A stretch of 64,000 bases of DNA from Bacillota bacterium (GTDB lineage Bacteria; Bacillota; Negativicutes; CTSoil-072), in assembly GCA_017889545.1 (NCBI GenBank), contig JAGFZV010000020.1, positions 1 to 64,000 on the forward strand, read 5' to 3'. Positions 48,634-64,000 of this stretch are shown piece after piece. The notes under the pieces are model-generated. The model was not told where the DNA came from. It saw nothing but the letters and a program-made list of their open reading frames with translations, and searched no databases. Position 1 is the stretch's first letter; each line of letters begins with the position of its first letter. Both the position numbers and the translations under genes were made by a program.

Positions 48634-50583
48634 TTAAATATCCAGTGCGGCATGATATCCCTGATAAATTGCAGTCGTTATCGTCGACGCGCAGACACAA
48701 TCGCCAATTTGCGCAACATACGGCGCACAGTCGATTAATTCTTCCACTACATTTCTTCTTGCGCGTTGTCCAAGTGCGCAAATGACGGTAGTGCCTGGAA
48801 CAAGATGTTCTTCACCGGCCTTATCAACACAGACAACACCTTCTTCGGTCACGCGTAATCCCTTATATTCTGTATGAACCTGGATCGTACTCTTGTCAAT
48901 TTCCGCTAACAGGATCGGACGATGCCTGATATTTGCATCCGGAGCCAGTTCCGTCCTCATTTCTACCAAATGCACGGTCTTTCCTTCCCGGGCAAGATGA
49001 ATGGCTGCTTCACAGCCGGCCAGACCGCCGCCAAGGACGACTACCTGATCGCTGACCTTATCCATCTCCAGATAATAGTCATTCACAACAATTACCTGAT
49101 CGCCCGCCAAACCAGGAATCGGTGGAATAAGCGGTTCGGAGCCAACAGCAATAATCAACGCATCCGCATTTTCTGTTTCAGCATATTCTTTTGTGACCGG
49201 CGTATTTAAGCGGATCTCAACTCCGGCATCTTTTGCTAATTTCCCAAGCGTAACGCCTAACTCATACATCTCATACTTAAATGGAATTGCCTGTTCTCCC
49301 TTCAGAATGCCGCCTAACTGGTCCGATTTCTCACACAGAATCACCTTATGTCCACGCTTTGCCGCAGTGATCGCCGCTTCCAATCCGCCCGGTCCGCCAC
49401 CGGCCACCAAAACCTTACGGGACTGGGAAGAAGGAACAACTTCTGTCCCATCCAATTCACGTCCGATGAATGGATTCACCGTACAGCGTCGCGTGGAGGT
49501 AACAGCCCGTTCGGCCATACAGGTAAAACAGCGCAGACATTTTACAATGTCCTCATCACGGTTGCTCATTACTTTTCTGGGAAGTTCATGATCCGCCAGG
49601 AGTGCACGCGCCATCTCCACAACGTCCGCTTTCCCGCTGGCAATGATTTCCTCCATCATCGCCGGGTCATTCAAGCCGCCAATCGTTGCAACCGGAACAC
49701 TCACATGTTTTTTGATCTCTGCAGCCAGGTAAACATTGCTGCCATGCGGTACAAACATCGAAGGATGTGTTATGCTAAAGCCTCTCTGGTAGGTTCCTGC
49801 CGATATATGCAGTAAATCGATTTGAGACTCAAGCAATTTGGCAATTTCAACGCCTTCAGCCAGATCATAGCCGCCCTCAAATAACTCCGAACCACTCATT
49901 CGAAACTCGATAGGGAAACCGGGTCCAACGGCTTTGCGCACACTGTCAAGGACCTCCCGGGCAAAACGCACTCTATTTTCCAGCGAACCGCCGTATTTGT
50001 CTGTCCGGTGGTTGAAATAAGGCGACAGGAACTGATTAATCAGCCAGCCATGACCGCCATGAACCATAACCATCTCAAAGCCTGCCCGCTTAGCTAATCC
50101 GGCAACATTTCCATAAGCTGCTACGATATCCGCGATCAGCTCTTCAGTAAGCTCCTTTACTTCCAGCCCGTCCGGGCGGACTCCCGCGCTCGGGCCCCAT
50201 TGGGCCAGGGAGTGTTTCTTATCCTTATCGGTCAGATACGTTCCGGCATACTGTCCGGAATGCGACAATTCCACACTGGCAATTGCCCCATGACGCCGTA
50301 TCGCATCCGCCGTGTAGGTAAAACTGGAAAGCGAACCTACCGTCTGCAAATCCAGGTGATACATATGAGATCCTTCTGTTTCCGGATGAACGACACATTC
50401 ACTGACAGTAACGGAGGCGGCGCCGCCTTTGGCTCTTAATTCATAAAAAGCGGTGGATGCGCGCCCTATGGTACAGTCGGCGGTAATGTCCGTTCCGCCC
50501 ATTGGAGCAGAAAACATTCTGTTGCGAAAATTCACATTGCCAATTTTGATTGGTTTGCACAGGTTGGGATATTTTCTCTGCAT
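48634..50583 (-). CDS. FadH-like NADH:flavin oxidoreductase (OYE family, Fe-S/FAD)
   Basis: 649 residues. An N-terminal FMN-binding TIM barrel of the Old Yellow Enzyme family ends in a cysteine cluster (CLRCFTC, then 11 residues, Cys), which binds a [4Fe-4S] cluster in FadH; here the third spacing is one residue shorter than in E. coli FadH. Two Rossmann domains follow (AGGGPGGLEAA, LGGGLAGCEAA). The family reduces enoyl-CoA or other activated alkenes. It is divergent from padR, with an operator between them, so phenolic or enoate substrates are plausible. Confidence 0.92.
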   Translation of the reverse strand: MQRKYPNLCKPIKIGNVNFRNRMFSAPMGGTDITADCTIGRASTAFYELRAKGGAASVTVSECVVHPETEGSHMYHLDLQTVGSLSSFTYTADAIRRHGAIASVELSHSGQYAGTYLTDKDKKHSLAQWGPSAGVRPDGLEVKELTEELIADIVAAYGNVAGLAKRAGFEMVMVHGGHGWLINQFLSPYFNHRTDKYGGSLENRVRFAREVLDSVRKAVGPGFPIEFRMSGSELFEGGYDLAEGVEIAKLLESQIDLLHISAGTYQRGFSITHPSMFVPHGSNVYLAAEIKKHVSVPVATIGGLNDPAMMEEIIASGKADVVEMARALLADHELPRKVMSNRDEDIVKCLRCFTCMAERAVTSTRRCTVNPFIGRELDGTEVVPSSQSRKVLVAGGGPGGLEAAITAAKRGHKVILCEKSDQLGGILKGEQAIPFKYEMYELGVTLGKLAKDAGVEIRLNTPVTKEYAETENADALIIAVGSEPLIPPIPGLAGDQVIVVNDYYLEMDKVSDQVVVLGGGLAGCEAAIHLAREGKTVHLVEMRTELAPDANIRHRPILLAEIDKSTIQVHTEYKGLRVTEEGVVCVDKAGEEHLVPGTTVICALGQRARRNVVEELIDCAPYVAQIGDCVCASTITTAIYQGYHAALDI

Positions 50584-50701
50584 ACATTCATTCTCCTTCA
50601 TCATTCATATTGAGGTTCTGTTTTCCATGTCTAACCTTGCTTCTTTCCGGCACTAATCCAATAAGGTCGGGATAAGACCTTGTATTTTTCATTCCATCTG
50701 T

Positions 50702-50730
50702 ATTATAATAGTTATACTAATACATGTCAA
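50702..50730 (-). promoter_or_regulatory. Consensus sigma-A promoter of the OYE-family reductase
   Basis: On the minus strand TTGACA and TATAAT are exactly 17 bases apart, a perfect consensus. Such a strong promoter needs a repressor; the PadR operator overlaps its -35 box. Confidence 0.9.
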
Positions 50731-50742
50731 TATTTACATGTT
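50721..50742. promoter_or_regulatory. PadR operator
   Basis: ATGT, eight bases, ACAT at 50724-50739 is the PadR consensus ATGT-N8-ACAT; the symmetry extends to TACATGT ... ACATGT. It overlaps the -35 box of the reductase promoter. An outer pair ATACTA/TAGTAT brackets the region. Confidence 0.85.
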
Positions 50743-50815
50743 GTACATTACATTGTAGTATGGGATTACTTTTGGCATGAAAGCAAAGTGTTTGGGAAAG
50801 GTGGCGGCTGGCAAA

Positions 50816-51391
50816 ATGCGTACGTTAAAATATGCGATTTTAGGGTTGATCAACCGGAAAGCGATGACCGGCTATGATTTGATGAAAGAGTTTACTATCG
50901 ATTTAGTGAATTTTTGGCATGCGCAGCACAGCCAACTCTACCCCGAGTTAAAAAAGTTAACCAATGAAGGCCTAATTACCTTCGAAACCGTGCTGCAGGG
51001 TGAAAAACTGGAAAAAAAACTCTACTCCATTACAGACGAAGGAAAAAAAGTTTTTTTAAGCTGGCTGGCGAAACAGGATCCCTTGGAACCGACACCAAAG
51101 GATATTTTCAGACTGAAAGCTTACTTCATCGAGTCCATGCGCAAGGAAGATATTCTGAAACAGTTTCATTATCAGCTTGATCAGCGAAAAGAAAAGTTAG
51201 TAAAGTTAGAGGCGACCATGCGTCAGCATCCTTATGCCAAAAACATTGCCGATATTATTTCTCCACTGTATGGAGACTATATTGTATTGAAAGGGGCTAT
51301 TATGAGAGAGCGAACCAATATAGACTGGTTGACGCAATGTATTAAAGAAATCGAAAAAGCTAAGAAAAACTGTTTTTATGGTTCTTCTTAG
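50816..51391 (+). CDS. PadR family transcriptional regulator
   Basis: 191 residues. The N-terminal winged helix (LKYAILGLINRKAMTGYDLM) is followed by a long C-terminal helical dimerisation region (VKLEATMRQHP). PadR proteins repress genes for phenolic-acid or drug detoxification and release DNA when the compound binds. The operator in the divergent promoter region supports control of the FadH-like reductase. The start could be 13 codons earlier; neither site has a perfect ribosome binding site. Confidence 0.9.
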   Translation: MRTLKYAILGLINRKAMTGYDLMKEFTIDLVNFWHAQHSQLYPELKKLTNEGLITFETVLQGEKLEKKLYSITDEGKKVFLSWLAKQDPLEPTPKDIFRLKAYFIESMRKEDILKQFHYQLDQRKEKLVKLEATMRQHPYAKNIADIISPLYGDYIVLKGAIMRERTNIDWLTQCIKEIEKAKKNCFYGSS

Positions 51392-51436
51392 CCTAAAACG
51401 GTTTCATTTTATCAATATCCGCTGATTTGCATTTTC

Positions 51437-51466
51437 AAAACACCGGTTTTAAGCCGGTGTTTTTTG
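51437..51466. terminator. Terminator between padR and the aldolase gene
   Basis: Arms AACACCGG and CCGGTGTT with T-runs on both strands, between converging genes. Confidence 0.9.
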
Positions 51467-51485
51467 TTGATCGAAGACACTGCGT

Positions 51486-52244
51486 CTATTTTAATTCGCC
51501 CACGAACCGTTTCGCTTCCTTGCCAAAAAGCGAATAAGCGCTCGTTATCAGCATCGAAAATCCCGCATCAAGATATCCTTGCACGCTTTCCCCGGGTCTC
51601 ACCACAGTACCGATCGATTTGGTTGTTTTTAAGCCTTCTGTTACAAACTGCTGATATGCCTCCTGCACCTTGGGATGTTGTCCTTGGCCTGGCACTCCGA
51701 GAGATTGCGAGAGATCGGAGGTCCCTAGAATCACTCCATCAATTCCATCCACAGAGAGAATATCCGCCAAATTTTCTATTGCGGTCGTATTTTCAATGAT
51801 CGCAAGAACCACTGTTTCTTGGTTTGCATCAACCACATACTCCGCTAACGGTTTTGCCATCCCATAGTCGGAGGCCCTTACTGCATTCAGCCCACGGTTC
51901 CCCTGGGGATAGTATTTTACTGCGCGAACTGCTTTTTCCGCTTCTTCCTTCGTTGAAATTCCCGGCAGGATGACGCCCATCGCGCCAATATCCATAAAGC
52001 GAAGAATGGTGTCGGGCTCAGAATTAGGAACTCTGATGAGTGGAACGGTATGACGAACTTCTGCTGCCCGTACCAGTTCTTCACAGTCGTTCGGCGAAAG
52101 TGATCCATGCTCCGCATCAATAAAAATAAAATCAAATCCTGCAATCCCGCATATCTCCACAAATGCCGGGAAAAATCCTTGAATCATGCATCCCGCTACG
52201 GGCTCGCGTCTGTTCATCTTTTCTTTCAGTGGGTTTTTATACAT
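51486..52244 (-). CDS. HpcH/HpaI family 2-oxoacid aldolase
   Basis: 252 residues. FIFIDAEHGSLS, the conserved MGVILPGISTKEEA with YYPQGNRG, and the GTSDLSQSLG metal region match class II pyruvate aldolases (HpaI, GarL). It cleaves a hydroxy-2-oxoacid to pyruvate and an aldehyde. No other pathway enzyme is next to it, so the substrate is unknown. Confidence 0.92.
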   Translation of the reverse strand: MYKNPLKEKMNRREPVAGCMIQGFFPAFVEICGIAGFDFIFIDAEHGSLSPNDCEELVRAAEVRHTVPLIRVPNSEPDTILRFMDIGAMGVILPGISTKEEAEKAVRAVKYYPQGNRGLNAVRASDYGMAKPLAEYVVDANQETVVLAIIENTTAIENLADILSVDGIDGVILGTSDLSQSLGVPGQGQHPKVQEAYQQFVTEGLKTTKSIGTVVRPGESVQGYLDAGFSMLITSAYSLFGKEAKRFVGELK

Positions 52245-52414: not shown

Positions 52415-52502
52415 AGTTATGTAATGGCCGACCATAAAATATCAAACCCTTTCTTAGTGTTTATGGATGTCTGCTGGAATAGTCATTCAAGGAGGGCAAT
52501 CA

Positions 52503-53174
52503 ATGGAAAAAAGCGCCTCAAGCACACCTTTTATTCATGGCAATAATGCGTTATTGAAAGTTTTTATGGAGAATTTAAAACAAAGCATTATGCTGAAAAA
52601 AGGAGAGCAATTTTTGCCTCAACTTTATGACACAATGATTTGCCTGATCAAAAAAGGCAGAGTAAAGGTCGCTTTATCCAATGAAGAAGGCGAAGATAAG
52701 TTAATGTGGTTTTTAAATGAAAACTGCATCATTTCTACGTTCAGCAAGTGTTTTTTTCAAGAAATTGTGGCTTTAGAGGCAACGGAGGTTCTCTTAATCG
52801 ACAAGGTTGTTTTTTTTGATTTTATTCGTTCTGATCAACAATATTTAGATATTTTCCTAAACCAGATCTATCGCAGATATGAGTACTGTATCGATAGTTT
52901 GCTTATCCAAAATAAAATAAACAGTAAAATGAAGGTTTATACGTTGCTGCAGCAATTAGGCAAACTCTACGGAACCGTTCAGCCAGACAACAGCCAATAC
53001 ATTAAAAGCTTTCTAACCCGCAATGAAATGTCCTCCATTACCGGGGTCCATCGGTCAAATATTATTAAATATCTGACCGAACTGGAACGTCTGGATGTCA
53101 TAGAAAAAAGCGGGAAGGTCATCATTATAAAAAAACCGCAGTTACTGGATGAACTAATTAAAGCAGAAGAATAA
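52503..53174 (+). CDS. Crp/Fnr family transcriptional regulator
   Basis: 223 residues, ATG five or six bases after AAGGAGGG. N-terminal cyclic-nucleotide-type beta barrel and a C-terminal winged helix with LTRNEMSSITGVHRSNIIKY. The N-terminus lacks the four-cysteine group of Fnr, so it does not carry an Fnr-type cluster; single cysteines are present. It faces the minus-strand cassette genes across a terminator. It may regulate the hydrolase-thioredoxin cassette, but no operator has been identified. Confidence 0.9.
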   Translation: MEKSASSTPFIHGNNALLKVFMENLKQSIMLKKGEQFLPQLYDTMICLIKKGRVKVALSNEEGEDKLMWFLNENCIISTFSKCFFQEIVALEATEVLLIDKVVFFDFIRSDQQYLDIFLNQIYRRYEYCIDSLLIQNKINSKMKVYTLLQQLGKLYGTVQPDNSQYIKSFLTRNEMSSITGVHRSNIIKYLTELERLDVIEKSGKVIIIKKPQLLDELIKAEE

Positions 53175-53329: not shown

Positions 53330-54652
53330 TTACCCTTTACCCAGTTTGAATGTTCCCAAAGCTTTTACTCGGCTCAGATCTGTCATATAATAGCGCAGTG
53401 AGAGATAAAAGAATATCTCACAAAGCACAAGAGAAGCGATCGCCAACATCTGCAGCGCATACGGCAAACCATATAAGTCTGAAAGTCTCCCTGCTACCAT
53501 GGGAGCCCAGACACCGAAACACAAATGATTGAAGATCGGCACCAAAGATACGCTCATGCCCCGGAGATACGGCGGCACAAGATCTTGGGTTACGGCATAA
53601 ACATTAATTTGCAATCCCGGCAATATGAACATTGCAGCCGTCCAGAGAATTGCTGTCGTACGAAAATCCCCGCTTTTCAGCGCTGCGGTCATCAGTATAA
53701 ACATGAACACAGCAAGTGTCATCGCAGTATAAATACGTCCTTTCGGTGAACGTTTCAGAAGCTTGTCACCCAGCGCCCCAAAAACCGGCGCTCCAATGCA
53801 GGCAACTAATCCGATGAGCCCGACCACCGCCCCTGCCTCTTTTACGTTCATTCCAAAAGTCCGGGCGTAATACGTAGCACCCCAAATCATAAACGTGTTT
53901 TCAAAAATGAACACAGATGCTCCACCCAATAAAACGATCAAAATGGTTTTGGTACGCAAAAGGTAGAGGATCGATTCTTTTAACGGTACCTTTTCTGTCT
54001 GATCAGAGGCACCCTTTTTCACCTTATAGTCAGGAATAAACCAGAACATGATTGCGATCAGAATTCCAGGGGCAGCCAGGATACCAAACATTGTCCGCCA
54101 ACCAAATTCGTAAGCTAAATAACCGGCAATGGCGACACCGGCAGCTGCGCCCAAAGGCTTTGCCGCATTAAATACACCCAACACCAACCCGCGTTTATTT
54201 TTAGGATACCACGCACTAAGGAGTGAAAAGGCTGGTGCAGCATAACCGGCTTCTCCGGTGCCAACAGACAGGCGAGCCAATATCAAATGCGTATAATTCT
54301 GAGCCATACCAGTTCCGTAAGTAGCTAAACTCCAAAAACCAACCATGAATGACATCATTTTACGGCGACTCCACTGGTCGCATAAGATCGCAACCGGGAA
54401 AACCAGAACCGCCATTGAAATGCCAACAACCGATCCAACAAAGCCGGCCTGAGCATCGGAAAGGGCAAATTCTTTTTTGAGCAGCGGCAATATTGCGTTT
54501 ACTGCTGTACGGTCAATCATATCCAGTATCATGGCCAAGCAGATTACAAATGTCCAAAAATATGCCTTCCCGCGGGGAATATTAAGTTCTGCCTGGTTGT
54601 CATCAGGATTGGATACATCGTTTTGTTTTGCCTGCAAATCTGGATTTGCCAA
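53330..54652 (-). CDS. MFS transporter, last gene of hydrolase cassette 1
   Basis: 440 residues, twelve helices with a charged N-terminal extension. MILDMIDRTAVNAILP and CDQWSRRKMMSFM are MFS signatures of the anion-transporting (ACS/spinster-like) branch. It ends the operon hydrolase-thioredoxin-flavoprotein-MFS. In cassette 2 an unrelated DASS-type carrier takes the same place, so the two operons probably move related but different anions. Confidence 0.85.
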   Translation of the reverse strand: MANPDLQAKQNDVSNPDDNQAELNIPRGKAYFWTFVICLAMILDMIDRTAVNAILPLLKKEFALSDAQAGFVGSVVGISMAVLVFPVAILCDQWSRRKMMSFMVGFWSLATYGTGMAQNYTHLILARLSVGTGEAGYAAPAFSLLSAWYPKNKRGLVLGVFNAAKPLGAAAGVAIAGYLAYEFGWRTMFGILAAPGILIAIMFWFIPDYKVKKGASDQTEKVPLKESILYLLRTKTILIVLLGGASVFIFENTFMIWGATYYARTFGMNVKEAGAVVGLIGLVACIGAPVFGALGDKLLKRSPKGRIYTAMTLAVFMFILMTAALKSGDFRTTAILWTAAMFILPGLQINVYAVTQDLVPPYLRGMSVSLVPIFNHLCFGVWAPMVAGRLSDLYGLPYALQMLAIASLVLCEIFFYLSLRYYMTDLSRVKALGTFKLGKG

Positions 54653-54848
54653 TTTTATATCCTCCTTTTATTTCCTTCATTTTCTAATTTTTTATTCTCG
54701 AAGGTTCCGAACTTTTGAAATCGACAACCTTCCTCCGAGGATGTGAATGAAAATAGAAAACTAATATAACTGAAAATATTCGGAAAAATCGCACTCCATT
54801 TAGACAACTACGCTTTCTTAGGAACAAGATCTTATTTCAATGATTGAT

Positions 54849-56042
54849 CTAAAATGAAACCACAGATAATTCTTCGGAAAGATCACGGATAACCGTTCCG
54901 TCCTCCAACAGCATTGCTGCTGGTATATTCGTCACATTGTAGCGCTGCGCCAGTCGTTTTTTTCTTGATATGTCCACTTTGACCAGACCTACCCGTCCTG
55001 CGCTTTCTGCTACTGCCTGTTCCAGTTTTGCCAATGCGCTAATGCTATTTTCATCCATCGGGCTCCAGAATGCAAGAACAACAGGCTTCTTTGCATTTTG
55101 AACATTGTCTTTAAAATCGTCTTCTTCAAGCAGATATTTTTCTGCATTGACTGCAGCGATGGCCCCGTCGGATGCTGCCGTTACCACTTGGCGCAGATGT
55201 TTCATTCTGGCATCTCCGGCTGCATATACGCCGTCTACCGAAGTCTCCATCAATTCATTCGCTGCAATGTAACCCCGCGCATCCAAATCGACTTTGTCTT
55301 TTAAAAGTCCCGTTTCCGGGATCATTCCCACATAGATAAATACCCCTTCGGTCTTGAGGTCTGTCAGATTTCCAGTTTTTAAGTTTTTTATGACGACTCC
55401 TTCTACCGCTTCTTCCCCTTTGATTTCAGTCAGAACAGAGTTCCATACAAACTCAATTTTTTCATTTCTGAACGCTTTTTCGGCACTAGCCTTGTTGCAG
55501 TCGACAATCCCTTCATCGTGAATGACAATGACAATCACTTTGCTGGCATACTTTGTAATATAGACCGCTTCTTCTATTGCTGCATCTCCGTTCCCGACAA
55601 TAACGACAGTCAAATCTTGATAAAAATCAGCGTCACAGGTAGCACAATAGGATACGCCGCTGCCTCTGAGCCTGCGCTCGCCGGGGATGTTCAATAAACG
55701 GGGCTGCGAACCTGGAGCAAGGATCACCGCTCTTGCCGCATACTTGTTGCCTTTTTTCGTTGTAATCGTTTTCATTTCTTTGCTCAGATCAATATCCAGC
55801 ACTTGTTCTTTGATGATTTCGGCGCCAAATTCTTTGGCATGGTCAGCCATGCTCTTCATGAGATCCGGACCTGTCGTCGCTTTAAACCCCGGATAATTTA
55901 CGATTTCCCGGGTTGTAAAGGCAAGTCCGCCGACAGCGCCTTTTTCCAAAATTGCAGTCTTTAGTTTTGCCCTCGCGCCGTAAACTCCTGCAGCCAGACC
56001 CGCCGGTCCTCCGCCTATAATAAGTAAATCATACTCTTTCAA
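54849..56042 (-). CDS. Thioredoxin-reductase-like flavoprotein with degenerate thioredoxin domain, copy 1
   Basis: 397 residues, TTG start after GAGGTGAT. FAD motif GGGPAGLAAG, redox disulfide CATCD, nucleotide motif GNGDAAIEEA. The HRRxxxR motif that binds NADPH phosphate is missing (the region reads VIHDEGIVDCNKA), so NADH or another donor is likely. After about residue 312 an extra thioredoxin-fold domain follows, with FWSPMDENS where thioredoxin has its CxxC; the cis-proline loop (NIPAAM) remains. It should reduce the thioredoxin encoded 73 bp upstream. Nearly identical to the copy at 61515. Confidence 0.9.
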   Translation of the reverse strand: MKEYDLLIIGGGPAGLAAGVYGARAKLKTAILEKGAVGGLAFTTREIVNYPGFKATTGPDLMKSMADHAKEFGAEIIKEQVLDIDLSKEMKTITTKKGNKYAARAVILAPGSQPRLLNIPGERRLRGSGVSYCATCDADFYQDLTVVIVGNGDAAIEEAVYITKYASKVIVIVIHDEGIVDCNKASAEKAFRNEKIEFVWNSVLTEIKGEEAVEGVVIKNLKTGNLTDLKTEGVFIYVGMIPETGLLKDKVDLDARGYIAANELMETSVDGVYAAGDARMKHLRQVVTAASDGAIAAVNAEKYLLEEDDFKDNVQNAKKPVVLAFWSPMDENSISALAKLEQAVAESAGRVGLVKVDISRKKRLAQRYNVTNIPAAMLLEDGTVIRDLSEELSVVSF

Positions 56043-56115
56043 AATTTATCACCTCATCGAATATGCCTGTGCGCATGGCATGTCGCCAATGCCCAAACTC
56101 CAGCAATCATGGCTG

Positions 56116-56436
56116 TTATAGAAGTTCTTTAATTTTTTCTTTCAGTGCCTCTTCTTCCACCAGTCCGCCCATCTTGCCTTTAAAATCGCCGTCCGCAAAC
56201 AACATGATCTGCGGCACCCCACGCAATGAAAATCGCGTATATAAGTCTCTTTCATCTTCCACATCAACATAATAAAACGTCATTTTATCTTTGTACTCTT
56301 CTGAGATTTCGGTTACCATCGGAACCACTTCCGCACAGACATGACACGTCTTTCTGCTGAACACGACCAGGCAGGTTTCGCAGTTGTCATAGATTTTTTC
56401 TTCGAATGTTTCCGCATTCAAACTTGTAAGTTCCAT
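56116..56436 (-). CDS. Thioredoxin with CHVC active site, copy 1
   Basis: 106 residues. Active site CHVC in VVFSRKTCHVCAEVVP, with a further cysteine just before it (DNCETC). The cis-proline is in LRGVPQIMLF. This is not a housekeeping WCGPC thioredoxin, so a dedicated client is likely, perhaps the hydrolase encoded upstream. The ATG (MELTSLNAE) follows AGTGGTGAT; a GTG four codons earlier is possible. Confidence 0.92.
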   Translation of the reverse strand: MELTSLNAETFEEKIYDNCETCLVVFSRKTCHVCAEVVPMVTEISEEYKDKMTFYYVDVEDERDLYTRFSLRGVPQIMLFADGDFKGKMGGLVEEEALKEKIKELL

Positions 56437-56587
56437 CACTATCACCACTTCATTGCATTATTTTTGTTTGGTTCCTATTCAGCGGCATTCATCAATTTAC
56501 CAATGTGCATGGGTGGGCAGAGTATGAATTGAATACTCTGCCCGGTCTGATTTTTCCATACCTATTCAGACGGCTAGCAAATTGAGT

Positions 56588-58609
56588 TTAAAATTCATCC
56601 TTTAAAATCTGGTAAACCGGCGCCCCTTCGCAATGTTCCGGCATTCTTACTCCGCCCAGCACTGCAAGGGTCGGCGCAAAATCAACCTGGCGGACTACAC
56701 GCTTGGTTGTAAACCCTTCTTTCAGGCCCTTACCGGCAGCAACAAAGATTGGACTGATCGAAGTGTCAAAGTATCCATAGTACGTGGACATGCTTTCACC
56801 GTGTTCACGGCAGCAGCCTTCTTTATTCATGTAAATAATATCGCCCGTTTCATCACCGCTCAGACCTAAAACGGAAGCTTCTTTATTTCGCAGTGCAATA
56901 CCGACTACGCGTTTTCCGGTTTTCGGGTTTCGATAATTATACAGATCGTCAATAATTTTTTCTTCCAGAGCGAATTTATCTTCCGGCTCAACAATACCGG
57001 TTGCATTTCTGCCCTTAAGATTGATCCAGATAAAGCTGCTCCGGGTGGCAACCGCCGTGGTTTTCTCCCAGTCAATTTCCCTCATGTCATTCCCGTTTTC
57101 ATCTTTTTTCAATACAGTATAGCCCAATTCTTGCATTACGCCGACATTGCAGGCCATGCCGTCTCCCAACAAGGGAAGTTCTTCTGTATGAATTTGCAAA
57201 CCATGGTCAGACGTAATAAAAATCGTCCAATCTTGATCCAGCAAATGCATGAACCTGCCAATGTAATAATCGGCATCTTTGTATACTTTTTCAATCAACC
57301 CCTGGTACAGCGTCTCATCATTGCCAACGCCCTCCTTGGTTAACGCATAGTTCCAATATAAGTGTCCCTGGTGGTCAATGAAGTGTACATGAGAGAAGAT
57401 CACTTCTATGCCCTTCTCATCGATAAGATAATTCATTGCATCCGCTTGCCATTTCACATAATTGGCCCAGACCGGGTTTAATAATTCTTTGCAATTTTCA
57501 AAGTTGGAACCGCCCATTTGACAGAACGGCGGAACATAGCCGACATTGCTGACAACATCTTGGTAGATTGTTTTCGGCGACCACCGCGTACTGTTGCTGA
57601 CATCAAACGCTGAGCTCGTCCAGATTCTTACCCGTGAGCCATCCGGAGCGATTTCCAGGGGTTTAAAATGCCGGTTGCACAACACCATGTCTCCATTTAC
57701 ATTGCATTCATCCATCACATTCCAGGCAAATTCTTTTTCTTTCATCATTGCCAGTGGTTGTTCATCTTTTTTAGATTTGTATAATGCTACGGCGTCATAA
57801 ATACCGGCTTCATTTTTCAAAATCAAAGCGGGTCTTCTCACTAATCCGTTGGAAAGCACAACAGAAAATTCCAGCGCGCCTTCAGGCGCATTTGCCCAGC
57901 CGGTCGCTTCTTTAATTGGGCTTACGGATCGATCGTAAGGGAGTTTATCTAAGCCAGCCGCGCCTTCCTCTAACGTCAGGAAGATGTTACGAACGGTTTT
58001 CTTCTTATGGCGTTCAAGCAAAAAGGATCCTGCTGGGCCTTCTTCGTCCGGCAAATCCTGAATAACGCAATTTGCTCCGGAATCATCGGTTACACACGGT
58101 TTATAGCCAACTTTCGTAACCGTATTCGCAGCTAATATCATTTTTTCGCCATCCACGTTGGCAGTACTCATATTTACCGCAGCCGGCTGGGCTCCGTCAA
58201 CAACGTACAAATTTTCGTTTTCAGAAGTCGGCGGCCACGCAGAACCGGGCCAGTGCCATACCAATGTTTTTTTGCCGGCTTCCGCAAAACAATTCCAAAG
58301 CTGTTCAGACTGACACATTTGCGAGTCCAGAGCATAAACCATTTCCGATAAATCATCCTTGCTTTGGTTCCAAAAATCAGTGATCCCATGGGTTTCCGGA
58401 TATGCACCGGTAGCAAGCGTAGTCCATTGCGCCGGAGTGATTGTTGGCATGGCGCCTAACATCTGCAAGTCTTCTCGCTGCGCCCCCCGCTCGATTAATT
58501 TTTTCAGGTTCGGCATAATCCCCTTGTCGACAAATTTCTTTGACAATTTGGGATCCATACCATCCAGGCCTAATACTAAAATTTTGTCTGCCTTCGCGTC
58601 TCTTTTCAC
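56588..58609 (-). CDS. Cytoplasmic NPP-like hydrolase of the alkaline phosphatase superfamily, copy 1
   Basis: 673 residues, GTG start after GGGGGAG. No signal peptide. The metal and nucleophile residues of type I phosphodiesterases are all visible: Asp16 in LGLDGMD, Thr58 in PTITPAQW followed by PETHGITDF, Asp and His in FIDHQGH, Asp-His in TSDHG, and His in REHG. It should hydrolyse a phosphate mono- or diester, or a sulfate or phosphonate ester. The central insert (about 150-400) is unlike common relatives. It heads the operon hydrolase-thioredoxin-flavoprotein-MFS. Substrate unknown. Confidence 0.88.
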   Translation of the reverse strand: MKRDAKADKILVLGLDGMDPKLSKKFVDKGIMPNLKKLIERGAQREDLQMLGAMPTITPAQWTTLATGAYPETHGITDFWNQSKDDLSEMVYALDSQMCQSEQLWNCFAEAGKKTLVWHWPGSAWPPTSENENLYVVDGAQPAAVNMSTANVDGEKMILAANTVTKVGYKPCVTDDSGANCVIQDLPDEEGPAGSFLLERHKKKTVRNIFLTLEEGAAGLDKLPYDRSVSPIKEATGWANAPEGALEFSVVLSNGLVRRPALILKNEAGIYDAVALYKSKKDEQPLAMMKEKEFAWNVMDECNVNGDMVLCNRHFKPLEIAPDGSRVRIWTSSAFDVSNSTRWSPKTIYQDVVSNVGYVPPFCQMGGSNFENCKELLNPVWANYVKWQADAMNYLIDEKGIEVIFSHVHFIDHQGHLYWNYALTKEGVGNDETLYQGLIEKVYKDADYYIGRFMHLLDQDWTIFITSDHGLQIHTEELPLLGDGMACNVGVMQELGYTVLKKDENGNDMREIDWEKTTAVATRSSFIWINLKGRNATGIVEPEDKFALEEKIIDDLYNYRNPKTGKRVVGIALRNKEASVLGLSGDETGDIIYMNKEGCCREHGESMSTYYGYFDTSISPIFVAAGKGLKEGFTTKRVVRQVDFAPTLAVLGGVRMPEHCEGAPVYQILKDEF

Positions 58610-58929
58610 TATTCAGTCTCCCCCTATCATTTTGAGCACTTACCTATAGCATAATCGATTATTTTTTCACAAAGGTCGCGAAGGCTACCTTTTTCTGAAT
58701 ATCCGAAAAAATAAGTTAAATTTTTCTCGTTTCAAACAACGATGTAAATTTTTTCTATTTAACCGGGATTGCGCATTAAAGAACTTTATAAAAGTTATAA
58801 TTTTAAGCAAACTAAAAAGTACACAATTTTTGCAATTTTATTTTTGCAATACTCGTGTACTTTGATAATAATTTTATTCTTTTATATTTGGATTAAGGTC
58901 TTTCCCTTTATTGAATCATTTCCGGTTTA
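58610..58929. other. Intergenic region between the two cassettes
   Basis: AT-rich, 320 bp, no gene. It must hold the promoter of cassette 1, but no consensus pair stands out and there is no sigma-54 site. A hairpin (AAAGTACAC and GTGTACTTT, 58816-58863) with internal TTTTTGCAAT repeats lies downstream of the kinase gene and may end cassette 2 transcription. Confidence 0.5.
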
Positions 58930-59826
58930 TTAATGCCAGGTCTTGTTAGTTCCGCAAATGTCAATCCCTTGATTGGCAGCACCGGTTTTTCGATACAGCC
59001 ATGGCAATACTGCTTCCAACAATACCCCTTCCCTTGGCGGCGTCCCGGCCAAAAAAGTGGTTTTAATTCCCAATTCTACAAACGCCGATGCTGTATTCAT
59101 TGCCGCCGCCAAACTGTGTCCCTGAAGTAATGATCCCAGCAGAACACTGGCAAAAATATCCCCTGTTCCGGGATATTTAGCTGGAACTAAGGTGCTGATC
59201 ACTTCCGTGAAACCGCCAATCGTACTATTATAACCCAAATTCATAATTCGGTTACCCGTCAAAGGAATACCGGTGATAACAACAGCCCGCGGACCAAAGC
59301 TGGCTAGGGCAACCAACCAACTTTTCATTTCTTCCACGCCGGATACCACATCAAGGTACGCTTTTTCTAATAAAAAACAAGCTTCCGTATAATTGGGCGT
59401 AATGATATCGGCCTTCCGCACCAATTTTTGCATCTGTTCCTGCATTTTAGTAGTATATACCGAATATAGCCTGCCTTCATCCCCCATTACCGGATCGACC
59501 AGCACAAGAGGGTTATTGTCAGAAAAATCGTCAATAAAGTTAACTACAGTATCAATTTGCTCTGTCGAAGCCAAAAATCCGCTATAAATACTGTCAAAAA
59601 CCACATTTTCCCGTTTCCAGTGCTCCGAAAAATTGGCCATATTCTCGCTCAAATCGCAAAAGGCGACCTTGGAAAAACCGCCCAAATGAGTGCTCAACAC
59701 CGCGGTAGGCAACGGACAGACCTGAATCCCCATCGCCGACAAAGTCGGAATGATCACCGTCAAAGCGGCTCTGCCGAAACAAGATAGATCATGTACCGCG
59801 GCCACTCTTTTTACAGTTGAAACCAT
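58930..59826 (-). CDS. Pyridoxal/pyridoxine kinase (PdxK/PdxY type)
   Basis: 298 residues, ribokinase fold. The N-terminal VAAVHDLSCFGRAALTVIIP and the PGTGDIFAS catalytic loop are typical. It phosphorylates pyridoxal, pyridoxamine or pyridoxine. It follows the DASS carrier in the cassette-2 operon; why a PLP kinase belongs there is not obvious, unless the pathway uses a PLP enzyme elsewhere. Confidence 0.9.
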   Translation of the reverse strand: MVSTVKRVAAVHDLSCFGRAALTVIIPTLSAMGIQVCPLPTAVLSTHLGGFSKVAFCDLSENMANFSEHWKRENVVFDSIYSGFLASTEQIDTVVNFIDDFSDNNPLVLVDPVMGDEGRLYSVYTTKMQEQMQKLVRKADIITPNYTEACFLLEKAYLDVVSGVEEMKSWLVALASFGPRAVVITGIPLTGNRIMNLGYNSTIGGFTEVISTLVPAKYPGTGDIFASVLLGSLLQGHSLAAAMNTASAFVELGIKTTFLAGTPPREGVLLEAVLPWLYRKTGAANQGIDICGTNKTWH

Positions 59827-59951
59827 TGCTTTTCTCCCTTATTTATCCGGTGAACAGCATATGCAAGAACGATTCATGCAACAGTATACAGTATTTATGC
59901 GTTAAAGTCAGCCTATTTCTTGTTATATAAACAATAAAACCATCATCCGTA

Positions 59952-61430
59952 TCAAAACAGCAGCATACCCAAAGGAATTCCAAGCACCACTATAATCAAA
60001 TAGGCACTGAAAGCTGCCCATATCCCAAAAATATACGCGTCTTTAGGTGCAACCCATTCTGTATTACCAAATACCAAAGCCGACCTGCTGGACGCACCAG
60101 GAGTAGCAATGGCCGCCATAATCGCTAAAATCAGACCGAGCGTTACAATAATCGGATTAGCACCAATAGAAACAGCCAGCGTAGTCAAAATTGGTGTCAT
60201 AATGGTTAGCAACACAAGATTATGAACAAATTGTGTAATTACAAGCGCAATGAAAAAACTCAATGCATAAAATAAAAAAGGATGGAGATTACTTAATAAA
60301 GGAGTCCAAGTAGTTGTCAAGGCTTGAATAATACCCGCATCTTTCAGTTCCAATGCATTGCCTAATGGTACCGTACAGGCCATAAGAACGATGATGCTCC
60401 AATTTGTTCCATTTGCTCCTAATCTTTGAAAACTGGTAAGAGGCTGACCATCTTTCGTCTTGATTAAACAGATGATTGCCATAAGCGCAGCAATGGTTGC
60501 AGGTACAGTAAATTTCGCAAGTACAGCGCCTATCGCTGTCGTTTTCGGAACAACTTGGGGCGCTAAAAGTGCTAGAATAAACACTATTGAAAAAAATATT
60601 GCCACTTTTTGTTCTTTCGTTACGGGCTCCAACTTCATGTTTTTGGCATAATCACCAGTTTCCAAGACACTCGTATCCAACTTAAATATATACTTCCCGC
60701 CGATGTGATACGATAACAGAGTGATCACCGATATCGGAGCCATGAAAATCAGATATTTTACAATATCAACGGACACACCGGTAGATTTCGCCAGCAAAGT
60801 AAGTCCTTGCAAGGGAAATAATGTAAACGGAAACACTCCCCAGCCTAACATAACAACATTAGCAACGCCGACCAAAATAAATCCAACTAATCGGTCTCTT
60901 TTCTCTAAACCAACTGTATCGGCAATGTTATAAACGATGCTCCATACAACAAGGATCGCCGCATAAACACCCATAATCGTAGCGACAAGATAGGACGCTA
61001 CAAAGATCATTAATACTAGGCGCCATGGCTTTCCAATCAGGAACTTACGCGTAATTAACCATGTTGCCATATACCTGTTCAATCCTGTTTCTTCAAGATA
61101 TGCGGCAAAAATAAAGAAAAACAACAACGTTAAGACAATATCGCTCCCGAAGCCTTCCAAGAATATTTTTTTAAGATTGCCATAGCCTGTAAAGCCTAAT
61201 ACAATCATTGAAACTAAACTTGGCCAAAGGACATCAATAAACAGCCAAGCGTATAAAGTCGCGATAAATACTCCGAGAATTTGCATACCCATTGGAGTTA
61301 TTGTGGCAATCGGCGGAACTATTTGTCCAAACCCAAACATCAAAAGGACAAACACCATCACATGAAAATAATGCATTTTGACCGAGGAAGATCCTTCGCT
61401 GGCACTTTGATTGTTTTTTTTAACAGTCAT
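59952..61430 (-). CDS. DASS/SLC13-type anion permease of hydrolase cassette 2
   Basis: 492 residues, ATG eight bases after GGAGG; the six-codon longer frame is less likely. About twelve hydrophobic segments, with the duplicated DASS elements ending in TPGASSRSALVFGN. DASS carriers move dicarboxylates, citrate, sulfate or sulfonates with Na+. It takes the place that an MFS protein holds in cassette 1. Confidence 0.88.
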   Translation of the reverse strand: MTVKKNNQSASEGSSSVKMHYFHVMVFVLLMFGFGQIVPPIATITPMGMQILGVFIATLYAWLFIDVLWPSLVSMIVLGFTGYGNLKKIFLEGFGSDIVLTLLFFFIFAAYLEETGLNRYMATWLITRKFLIGKPWRLVLMIFVASYLVATIMGVYAAILVVWSIVYNIADTVGLEKRDRLVGFILVGVANVVMLGWGVFPFTLFPLQGLTLLAKSTGVSVDIVKYLIFMAPISVITLLSYHIGGKYIFKLDTSVLETGDYAKNMKLEPVTKEQKVAIFFSIVFILALLAPQVVPKTTAIGAVLAKFTVPATIAALMAIICLIKTKDGQPLTSFQRLGANGTNWSIIVLMACTVPLGNALELKDAGIIQALTTTWTPLLSNLHPFLFYALSFFIALVITQFVHNLVLLTIMTPILTTLAVSIGANPIIVTLGLILAIMAAIATPGASSRSALVFGNTEWVAPKDAYIFGIWAAFSAYLIIVVLGIPLGMLLF

Positions 61431-61514
61431 CTTACCGACCTCCGTCATTTATATACTTTTATTCTACTTATCCAGTCAGCTCGAATCATACTTAAATCAT
61501 TTTTGGGGTTTAAG

Positions 61515-62708
61515 CTAAAATGCAACGACAGATAAGTCTTCGGAAAGATCACGAATGACCGTTCCGTTCTCCAAGAGCAATGCTGCCGGTATATTGGTCA
61601 CGCTGTAGCGCTGCGCTATCCGTTTTTTTCTTGATATATCCACTTTGACCAAACTTACCTTGTTTTTGCTTTCTGCTACTGCCTGTTCCAGGTTTGCCAG
61701 CGCGCCGATGCTATTCTCATCCATCGGACTCCAGAATGCAAGAACAACAGGCTTTTTTGCGTTTTGGACATTGTCTTTAAAATCGTCTTCTTCCAGCAGA
61801 TATTTTTCCGCATTGACAGCAGCAATCGCCCCGTCCGATGCCGCCGTTACCACTTGTCGCAGATGTTTCATTCTGGCATCTCCGGCTGCATATACGCCGT
61901 CTACTGAAGTCTCCATCAATTCATTCGCTGCAATGTAACCTCGCGCATCCAAATCGATTTTGTCTTTTAAAAGTCCCGTTTCCGGGATCATTCCCACATA
62001 GATAAATACCCCTTCGGTCTTGAGGTCTGTCAGATTTCCGGTTTTTAAGTTTTTAACGACGACTCCTTCTACCGCTTCTTCCCCTTTGATTTCCGTCAGA
62101 ACAGAGTTCCATACAAACTCAATTTTTTCATTTCTGAACGCTTTTTCGGCGCTGGCCTTGTTGCAGTCGACAATCCCTTTATCGTGAATCACAATGACAA
62201 TTACTTTGCTGGCGTATTTAGTAATGTAGACCGCTTCTTCGATTGCCGCGTCTCCGTTGCCGACAATAACAACGGTCAAATCTTGATAAAAATCAGCGTC
62301 ACAGGTAGCACAATAGGATACGCCGCTGCCTCTGAGTCTTCTTTCGCCTGGAATGTTCAGCAAGCGGGGCTGCGAACCTGGAGCAAGGATCACCGCTCTT
62401 GCCGCATACCGGTTGCCTTTTTTCGTTGTAATCGTTTTCATTTCTTGGCTAAGATCGATATCCAGCACTTGTTCTTTGATAATTTCAGCGCCAAATTCTT
62501 TGGCATGGTCAGCCATGCTTTTCATGAGATCGGGACCTGTCGTTGCTTTAAACCCCGGATAATTTACGATTTCCCGGGTTGTAAAGGCAAGCCCGCCAAC
62601 TGCGCCTTTTTCCAAAATCGCGGTTTTTAACTTTGCTCTTGCGCCGTAAACTCCTGCTGCCAGACCCGCCGGGCCCCCGCCGATAATAAGTAAATCATAC
62701 TCTTTCAA
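61515..62708 (-). CDS. Thioredoxin-reductase-like flavoprotein with degenerate thioredoxin domain, copy 2
   Basis: 397 residues, TTG start after GAGGTGAT. I count about 17 amino-acid differences from copy 1, some 12 of them within the last 75 residues, in the degenerate thioredoxin domain. FAD motif, CATCD disulfide and the missing HRRxxxR are the same as in copy 1, as is FWSPMDENS. It should reduce the thioredoxin encoded just upstream. Confidence 0.9.
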   Translation of the reverse strand: MKEYDLLIIGGGPAGLAAGVYGARAKLKTAILEKGAVGGLAFTTREIVNYPGFKATTGPDLMKSMADHAKEFGAEIIKEQVLDIDLSQEMKTITTKKGNRYAARAVILAPGSQPRLLNIPGERRLRGSGVSYCATCDADFYQDLTVVIVGNGDAAIEEAVYITKYASKVIVIVIHDKGIVDCNKASAEKAFRNEKIEFVWNSVLTEIKGEEAVEGVVVKNLKTGNLTDLKTEGVFIYVGMIPETGLLKDKIDLDARGYIAANELMETSVDGVYAAGDARMKHLRQVVTAASDGAIAAVNAEKYLLEEDDFKDNVQNAKKPVVLAFWSPMDENSIGALANLEQAVAESKNKVSLVKVDISRKKRIAQRYSVTNIPAALLLENGTVIRDLSEDLSVVAF

Positions 62709-62783
62709 ATTGTATCACCTCATCGAATATGCCTGTTCACTTAACCTGTACGCCAACGAATACAACTTCAACAATCATTGTTG

Positions 62784-63104
62784 TTACAGGAGTTCTTCAA
62801 TTTTTTCTTTCAGGGCCTCTTCTTCCACCAGTCCGCCCATTTTGCCTTTAAAATCGCCGTCCGCAAACAACATGATTTGCGGTACCCCTCGTAATGAAAA
62901 TCGAGTATATAAGTCTCTTTCGTCTTCCACATCAACATAATAAAACGTCATTTTATCTTTATACTCTTCAGAGACTTCGGTTACCATAGGAACCACTTCC
63001 GCACAGACATGACAAGTTTTTCTACTAAAAACGACCACGCAGGTCTCGCAGTTGTCATAGATTTTTTCATCGAATGTTTCCGCATTCAAACTTGTAAGTT
63101 CCAT
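62784..63104 (-). CDS. Thioredoxin with CHVC active site, copy 2
   Basis: 106 residues, four differences from copy 1 (at positions near the start, before the CHVC site, in TEVSEEY, and near the end). CHVC and cis-proline are intact. The gap between this gene and the flavoprotein has the same length class as in cassette 1. Confidence 0.92.
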   Translation of the reverse strand: MELTSLNAETFDEKIYDNCETCVVVFSRKTCHVCAEVVPMVTEVSEEYKDKMTFYYVDVEDERDLYTRFSLRGVPQIMLFADGDFKGKMGGLVEEEALKEKIEELL

Positions 63105-63272
63105 CACTATCACCACTTCATCACATTTTTGGGGTTTGCTTCTTATTATGTAATATGCAGAATAGCACTGTTAATTTATTGACTGGGCAGAATATCTGCT
63201 GCTTATTCCACCCAGTCGTCACTATCCACTCTTACCTATTCAAATGATACACATCATTGTACAACAAATTTC

Positions 63273-64000
63273 TTACTCCAAAATTTGATATACAGGAGCG
63301 CCTTCACAATGCTCCGGCATACGTACGCCAAGCAAAGAAGCCATGGTTGGAGCCAGATCTACTTGACGAACATTCCGCTGCAAATCCGGATTATTCACAA
63401 TGCCTTTGCCGGCTGCAATGAAGATCGGAGATACAGACGTTCCATAATAACCGGTATAGGTAGATAAACCAAGCCCATGCTCTCCTACACAGCCTTCTCT
63501 GTTCATGACAATGATATCACCGGTTTCAGGACCGTCCATGCCAAGAATGATTGCATCTTTGTTTTTCAACGCCATGGAAACAATACGTTTTCCTGTTGCA
63601 GGATCCTTGTAAGCATATAAAGAGTCAATAATTGCTTCTTCAACCGCCTCTTTATCTGCTGGATCTACAATTCCATTCGGATTTCTGCCTTTTAAGTTAA
63701 TCCAAATATAACTGGTTCGGATGCTGACAGCTTTTGTTTTTGTCCAGTCGATTTCCTCTAATTCGTTGCCTTGTTCATCTTTCTTCAATACAGTCCAACC
63801 CAATTCTTTCATAACACCGAGACTCACACCCATGGGAGACCCCAATTTAGCGAGAGGTTCGTAATGGATCTGTTCACCGTGGTCAGAGACAATAAAGATT
63901 GTCCAGCCTTTATCCAATAAATGCATAAACTGACCAATATATTCATCGGTATCCTGATAGGTTTTGTCAATTAAAGCCTGGAATTCAGTTTCAGGTGGCG
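63273..64000 (-). CDS. NPP-like hydrolase of the alkaline phosphatase superfamily, copy 2 (C-terminal part only)
   Basis: The gene runs off the right edge; about 241 C-terminal residues are visible, and the frame continues past the internal Met at 63926 (residues QALIDKTYQDTDEYIGQFMH precede LLDKGW). SDHG and GEHG metal residues are present. It is clearly related to copy 1 but far more diverged than the thioredoxin genes; by eye more than one third of residues differ. The shared end MPEHCEGAPVYQIL is intact. Confidence 0.88.
   Translation of the reverse strand, partial: PPETEFQALIDKTYQDTDEYIGQFMHLLDKGWTIFIVSDHGEQIHYEPLAKLGSPMGVSLGVMKELGWTVLKKDEQGNELEEIDWTKTKAVSIRTSYIWINLKGRNPNGIVDPADKEAVEEAIIDSLYAYKDPATGKRIVSMALKNKDAIILGMDGPETGDIIVMNREGCVGEHGLGLSTYTGYYGTSVSPIFIAAGKGIVNNPDLQRNVRQVDLAPTMASLLGVRMPEHCEGAPVYQILE

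Follow-up and report, generated by a model that had tools for sequence, protein, structure and literature searches.

Results

Two hydrolase-thioredoxin cassettes in the window

The window in the present study, namely, the whole 64,000-nucleotide stretch that was analyzed (positions 1 to 64,000 of the forward strand of contig JAGFZV010000020.1, Bacillota bacterium assembly GCA_017889545.1, class Negativicutes), carries two cassettes on its minus strand. Each consists of, in this order, a hydrolase of the alkaline phosphatase (AP) superfamily, a thioredoxin (Trx), a thioredoxin reductase (TrxR) with an additional fused domain, and a transporter. A role for these cassettes in sulfur metabolism is likely, and the chances are about even that they are modules for the use of organosulfates that feed sulfite respiration. 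The features are as follows.

56588..58609, minus strand: AP-superfamily hydrolase 1 (PF01663), 673 aa, from a profile match and a structure model
58436..58438, minus strand: Thr58 codon of hydrolase 1, predicted nucleophile, from the alignment
58067..58069, minus strand: Cys181 codon of hydrolase 1, proposed sulfuryl acceptor, from the alignment and the structure model
56515..56543, minus strand: hairpin with an 11-bp stem between the hydrolase 1 and trx 1 genes
56116..56448, minus strand: Trx 1, CHVC (codons 56335-56346)
54849..56042, minus strand: TrxR 1 (CATC codons 55635-55646) with a fused Trx domain lacking CxxC
53330..54652, minus strand: MFS transporter of cassette 1, with matches to anion/aromatic-acid-type subfamilies, all below the cut-offs
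63273..64000, minus strand: AP-superfamily hydrolase 2, 687 aa, which crosses the window end and is whole at contig C18:63270-65336
63181..63217, minus strand: hairpin with a 14-bp stem between the hydrolase 2 and trx 2 genes
62784..63116, minus strand: Trx 2, CHVC
61515..62708, minus strand: TrxR 2 with a fused Trx domain lacking CxxC
59952..61448, minus strand: DASS/CitMHS-type anion transporter of cassette 2 (Pfam/NCBIfam)
58930..59826, minus strand: pyridoxamine kinase of cassette 2 (NF005491, over the cut-off)
52467..53174, plus strand: CRP/FNR-type regulator; its nearest solved relative is CprK, a chlorophenol sensor

All cassette genes were found where an earlier interpretation made from the letters alone (the sequence-only reading) had placed them, with the same order and strand and with MFS in one cassette and DASS in the other. 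The DNA of the two cassettes is 92-93% identical in the Trx and TrxR genes and 62% identical in the hydrolase genes (60% for the hydrolase proteins). Since the Trx-TrxR pair is nearly identical while the hydrolases have diverged, it appears to be a copied redox module that serves diverged substrate enzymes.

The CHVC protein is a thioredoxin, and the reductase matches TIGR01292 (352 bits, cut-off 343; Pfam/NCBIfam). The additional domain of the latter, previously described as degenerate, is a thioredoxin domain (PF00085, E 7.9e-10) without CxxC. We compared 43 distinct fused TrxRs of this genome and of related ones: CxxC was absent from the fused domain in all of them, 42 had a CATC-type redox motif, and none had the NADPH motif HRRxxxR. 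Because this motif is missing, electrons may come from NADH or ferredoxin. One cousin of the fused TrxR, with 43% identity, is encoded beside TusA and a YeeE/YedE-type sulfur transporter in L132 (3562-7619) and has a similar neighbor before it in L134 (5883-7695); these two loci perhaps represent a thiosulfate route.

Hairpins with stems of 11-17 bp lie between the hydrolase and trx genes in four of the five hydrolase cassettes of this genome and in many relatives; besides the two in the window, they were noted in L011 (9969-10329), L010 (7744-7844), L018, L019, L021, L023, and L075. None matched an Rfam family, and in several loci a run of T follows, as in a terminator. Gene order and strand agree with the previously proposed operons; however, the hairpin leaves simple co-transcription unassured and suggests that the hydrolase is produced in excess over Trx and TrxR. 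The sequence-only reading also assigned a pyridoxal kinase to cassette 2. A pyridoxamine kinase is indeed present, but we ruled it out as a conserved cassette member because no kinase was found in the other four hydrolase cassettes of this genome; a further kinase gene lies near a Trx/TrxR pair, but in a separate transcription unit.

Further copies in the same genome

The genome (3.27 Mb, 96% complete, one assembly) holds more than the two copies previously noted: five cassettes with a full hydrolase (two on contig C18 and one each on C22, C14, and C1) and two in which an arylsulfate sulfotransferase (ASST) takes the place of the hydrolase. Trx and fused TrxR adjoin the hydrolase in all five. 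The ASST cassettes, on C3 (fused TrxR) and C31 (ordinary TrxR), also have an MFS or DASS carrier; their ASSTs match PF05935 (E 4e-89 and 2e-105), with E. coli AssT (3elq) as the best solved match. The position upstream of Trx/TrxR is thus held by two unrelated enzyme families, one of which, ASST, is known for sulfuryl transfer. All seven Trx/TrxR pairs of the cassette type adjoin a hydrolase or an ASST, and none adjoins dsr genes. Around the C22 cassette lie two TauE/SafE genes and a gene for a sulfatase of the formylglycine type (L011 884-4891 and 16165-16911).

Three further ASSTs are encoded on C5 and C7 (L106 2786-13193, L107 6213-7820). The C5 pair shares its locus with a GcvH-type lipoyl protein, dihydrolipoamide dehydrogenase (Lpd), and a glutaredoxin-like protein, which are again dithiol reductants, and this locus is a possible lipoyl version of the redox link of ASST. 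No Cys was invariant among the eight ASSTs compared; the four linked to Trx/TrxR share Cys577 alone. A single-sequence structure model of an ASST was uninformative (pLDDT 33).

Active site and cysteines of the hydrolase

The assignment of the hydrolase to the NPP/AP superfamily was borne out by the profile match (PF01663, E 6.6e-33), the metal site, and the fold. Across 109 homologues (32 of them Trx-linked), T58, D412, H416, D468, H469, and H603 were present in every sequence and D16 in 106, with a gap in the remaining three. The bimetal ligands of the AP superfamily (D16, D468, and H469; D412, H416, and H603) and the Thr nucleophile are therefore all kept. No formylglycine motif (C/SxPxR) was found in these homologues, all 109 of which have Thr58 at the nucleophile position, and a profile search gave no match to PF00884 in the window hydrolase. 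The AlphaFold model of hydrolase 1 (pLDDT 88.9) matches the folds of PafA, phosphonoacetate hydrolase (PhnA), NPPs, and ENPP6. No signal peptide was apparent by eye in the N-termini.

Cys181 is kept in 102 of the 109 homologues and is the sole Cys that is invariant in the Trx-linked copies (32/32). Its entropy is 0.38, against a surrounding median of 2.77, and it lies in a segment (173-203) predicted at pLDDT <50. Cys99 and Cys660 occur together in 87 of the 109; two Trx-linked copies lack both, and a third lacks Cys99. A Cys99-Cys660 switch disulfide was therefore ruled out as a general target of Trx.

Sulfur metabolism and distribution

In this genome, dsrA, dsrB, dsrC, and dsrK (above NCBIfam cut-offs) and a dsrM-like gene form one cluster. 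Profile searches of the same 96%-complete assembly found no ATP sulfurylase (PF01747), no CysH/CysD (PF01507; the same search was positive in 14/14 control genomes), and no aprA over the cut-off. An AprA-like flavoprotein on C1 was rejected as an APS reductase (81 bits, cut-off 642), and the absence of PF01507 rules out Trx as the donor of a CysH-type PAPS reductase. Only the dsr part of the canonical dissimilatory sulfate reduction set (sat, aprAB, and dsrAB) was found. Judged by these searches, sulfite reduction is within reach of this genome, whereas sulfate activation is not.

A scan of named genomes yielded 79 hydrolase loci, and co-occurrence was counted over 50 hydrolase-bearing named genomes. 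Most of the hosts are Desulfosporosinus, Desulfotomaculum-type bacteria, and Peptococcaceae of gut or termite origin, and some are clostridia and lactobacilli. Cassette-type Trx is present in approximately one-third of the 79 loci, and many other genomes have the same neighborhood, which, together with the five Trx/TrxR-linked hydrolases of the present genome, shows that the arrangement is not due to chance. dsrA was over the cut-off in 27 genomes, and three more have partial or contig-split dsr genes. Fused TrxR occurs in all 30 of these dsr genomes and in 6 of the 20 without dsr (Fisher 4e-8, ignoring kinship), with three of these six being only 43-49% identical. ATP sulfurylase was detected in 15 of the 50 genomes, and approximately half of the dsr genomes are without it. 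Among those in which it was not detected are the isolates Pelotomaculum propionicicum and Anaerospora hongkongensis, which combine dsr with hydrolase-Trx-TrxR cassettes.

In the Gracilibacteraceae genome G047 (contig C66), dsrA-dsrB is immediately preceded by Trx-TrxR on the same strand, in a run that continues to dsrC (L116 6731-11214); an ASST-TrxR pair is located on the same contig (L138 3256-6056). TrxR follows a dsrMK-like pair in genome G048 (L126), and in two Bacillota metagenome-assembled genomes (MAGs) a gene for an AsrC-like sulfite reductase comes after that of the hydrolase. Gut Peptococcaceae (L083, L085, and L091) have tandem hydrolase arrays of up to four in a row, in a clade that includes copies without Cys181. 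A hydrolase-DASS pair at L035 comes from a MAG labeled Rickettsiales, is nested among Bacillota sequences, and is probably misbinned.

Substrate clues

The choline trimethylamine-lyase gene cutC, with eutE and shell genes, adjoins the hydrolase in four genomes, one of which is the present one (C14 cassette). Two of the CutC proteins were scored with TIGR04394 and gave 1540 and 1570 bits against a cut-off of 1050. Three more hydrolases have eutE and bacterial microcompartment (BMC) genes next to them. In MES5, hydrolase, EamA-type transporter, Trx, TrxR, BMC, EutE, CutC, and CutD genes are encoded on one strand. All seven CutC/EutE/BMC-linked hydrolases fall into one 41-member clade and none into the other 68 sequences (p 8e-4, ignoring kinship). 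The clostridial members of this clade have TauA/SsuA-like ABC transporters nearby. These neighborhoods suggest choline-O-sulfate as the simplest substrate for the CutC-linked clade, with phosphocholine still a possible one given that choline-specific phosphodiesterase ENPP6 is among the fold matches. The window hydrolases form a separate clade in the tree, with DASS partners. Since the regulator beside them is, among solved structures, nearest to the chlorophenol sensor CprK, our guess for their substrate is an aromatic or other organic sulfate.

Discussion

Proposed pathway and its relation to known systems

We propose that an organic sulfate ester enters the cell through a cassette-specific carrier, which is an MFS or DASS protein here and an ABC transporter in other genomes. 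Its sulfuryl group would then be removed from the alcohol by a cytoplasmic enzyme, namely, the AP-superfamily hydrolase, with Thr58 as the nucleophile and the two-metal site, or ASST in two of the cassettes. This group would pass, via the Thr or directly, to a thiol, most simply that of the mobile Cys181, to give an enzyme S-sulfonate, which the dedicated Trx would attack to free sulfite; the fused TrxR would re-reduce Trx. Sulfite would then serve DsrABC and DsrMK as the electron acceptor, and fermentation would use up the remaining alcohol, which for the CutC-linked copies would be choline. The route would thereby stand in for ATP sulfurylase and APS reductase. We give the step of direct reduction to sulfite an even chance of being right. 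Somewhat short of that, we place the broader view that sulfate esters act as pre-activated sulfate, which two unrelated enzymes, each with a dedicated Trx, convert to sulfite, and that organosulfates, choline-O-sulfate among them, are respired by dsr organisms that lack both sat and APS reductase.

To our knowledge, thioredoxin chemistry on sulfate is confined to nucleotide-activated sulfate. We found no paper in the open literature, to which our search extended (subscription journals lay outside it), that describes an organosulfate-to-sulfite Trx pathway, nor any described pathway with the gene set of the cassettes, in agreement with the sequence-only reading. Transfer to Cys181 and Trx-driven sulfite release are proposed because a lone conserved Cys in a mobile loop, presumably close to the sulfuryl-transfer site, together with a dedicated Trx, recalls the Trx-dependent reductases for adenosine 5'-phosphosulfate (APS) and its 3'-phosphorylated form (PAPS), where thioredoxin resolves a thiosulfonate on the enzyme and thereby yields sulfite (PMC6827007). 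The proposed likeness to these enzymes (CysH, PF01507) is a sulfuryl group on the single Cys of a mobile segment, from which Trx would free sulfite. In contrast, the cassette enzyme has the unrelated AP fold, and its donor would be an organic sulfate ester rather than an ATP-activated sulfonucleotide.

The AssT-DsbL-DsbI operon of uropathogenic E. coli and Salmonella also couples a sulfuryl-transfer enzyme to its own thiol redox pair (PMC3526765). However, that system is periplasmic and oxidizing, forming a disulfide in AssT, whereas the cassettes have a reducing Trx/TrxR pair without an apparent signal sequence, and this pair is also used with an unrelated hydrolase. The hydrolase itself shares its metal ligands, Thr nucleophile, and fold with NPP, phosphonoacetate hydrolase, and PafA; it differs in its length (approximately 670 aa), added mid-domain, conserved Cys181 loop, redox partner genes, and low identity (10-14%). 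Choline sulfatase BetC (PF00884) is a formylglycine sulfatase with CxPSR. It may have choline-O-sulfate as a substrate in common with the CutC-linked clade, whereas the cassette hydrolase has Thr and no CxPSR. In organosulfonate respiration (the isethionate lyase and Xsc routes), C-S lyases yield sulfite for DsrAB. An organic sulfur compound would similarly be the source of sulfite here, but through an O-sulfate enzyme and thioredoxin.

Weighing of the interpretations

The sequence-only reading envisaged a dedicated thiol couple with an anion-type carrier, which our results support, and the uptake of an anion followed by a hydrolysis that needs or is controlled by thiols. The thiol link stands; however, the seven-fold occurrence of the cassette, the replacement of the hydrolase by ASST, dsr without Sat, AprA, or CysH, the Trx-TrxR-dsrAB cluster, and the CutC neighborhood favor organosulfates as substrates and Trx as an electron supply rather than only a regulator. 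Several points weigh against the use of organosulfates for sulfite respiration. Approximately two-thirds of the hydrolase loci have no adjacent Trx, a prevalence that the sequence-only reading had singled out as damaging, although fused TrxR is present in 36 of the 50 genomes, including every one with dsr. The clostridia and lactobacilli with the hydrolase are mostly without dsr and a full-strength TrxR. Copies without a Trx neighbor mostly retain Cys181 just as well, and one gut clade has lost it; therefore, it is not diagnostic of Trx linkage. Energetically, NAD(P)H is a marginal reductant for alkyl sulfate esters, and low sulfite or a ferredoxin-type donor would thus be needed. In addition, the AP fold also includes choline-specific phosphodiesterases (ENPP6), and most absences come from a single 96%-complete assembly or from MAGs.

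The many loci without Trx would fit an ordinary Thr-type sulfatase that releases sulfate, with Trx/TrxR just keeping the hydrolase (or ASST) reduced or switching it on under reducing conditions. AP-superfamily enzymes do hydrolyze via a Thr intermediate, and Cys99 and Cys660 could form a switch disulfide. We regard this explanation as unlikely: no means of using sulfate was detected in this genome, the Trx-linked copies that lack one or both of these Cys do not fit the switch, and Trx-TrxR beside dsrAB and the lipoyl protein/Lpd pair beside other ASSTs would be left unexplained. Quite improbable is a phosphorus substrate (phosphocholine, glycerophosphocholine, or a phosphonate) for a phosphatase/phosphodiesterase or PhnA-like hydrolase. 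The nearest solved sequences are phosphonoacetate hydrolase and NPPs, the fold matches include choline-specific ENPP6 and the alkaline phosphatase PafA, and CutC neighbors suit any choline ester; however, ASST fills the same slot in two cassettes, the linkage is to dsr, AsrC-like, and TauE genes and to TauA/SsuA-like transporters, and the Trx/TrxR pair would have no role.

The neighbors of TrxR in other genomes raise the question of whether Trx/TrxR instead serves the sulfite-reduction side, for example, a DsrC trisulfide or thiosulfate, and lies near hydrolases merely through a shared sulfur regulon. Trx-TrxR heads dsrAB in G047, TrxR is beside dsrMK-like genes in G048, the 43% cousin is beside YeeE/YedE and TusA, and several DASS-rich genomes have a single unlinked TrxR. 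However, in the present genome, every pair accompanies a hydrolase or ASST and none accompanies dsr, and the provision of one pair for each substrate enzyme points to a direct partner, which makes this alternative very unlikely.

If organosulfates are indeed reduced to sulfite through the cassettes, Trx chemistry would extend to sulfate esters and sulfur respiration would have a new entry route. P. propionicicum and A. hongkongensis may then respire organic sulfates. Osmolytes and host and plant sulfates would be an additional source of sulfite and sulfide in soils, sediments, and guts, and choline-O-sulfate would be tied to trimethylamine formation.

Beyond the cassettes, the window encodes an old-yellow-enzyme-type flavoprotein (656 aa), a PadR regulator, and an HpcH/HpaI aldolase as neighbors at 48634-52244.

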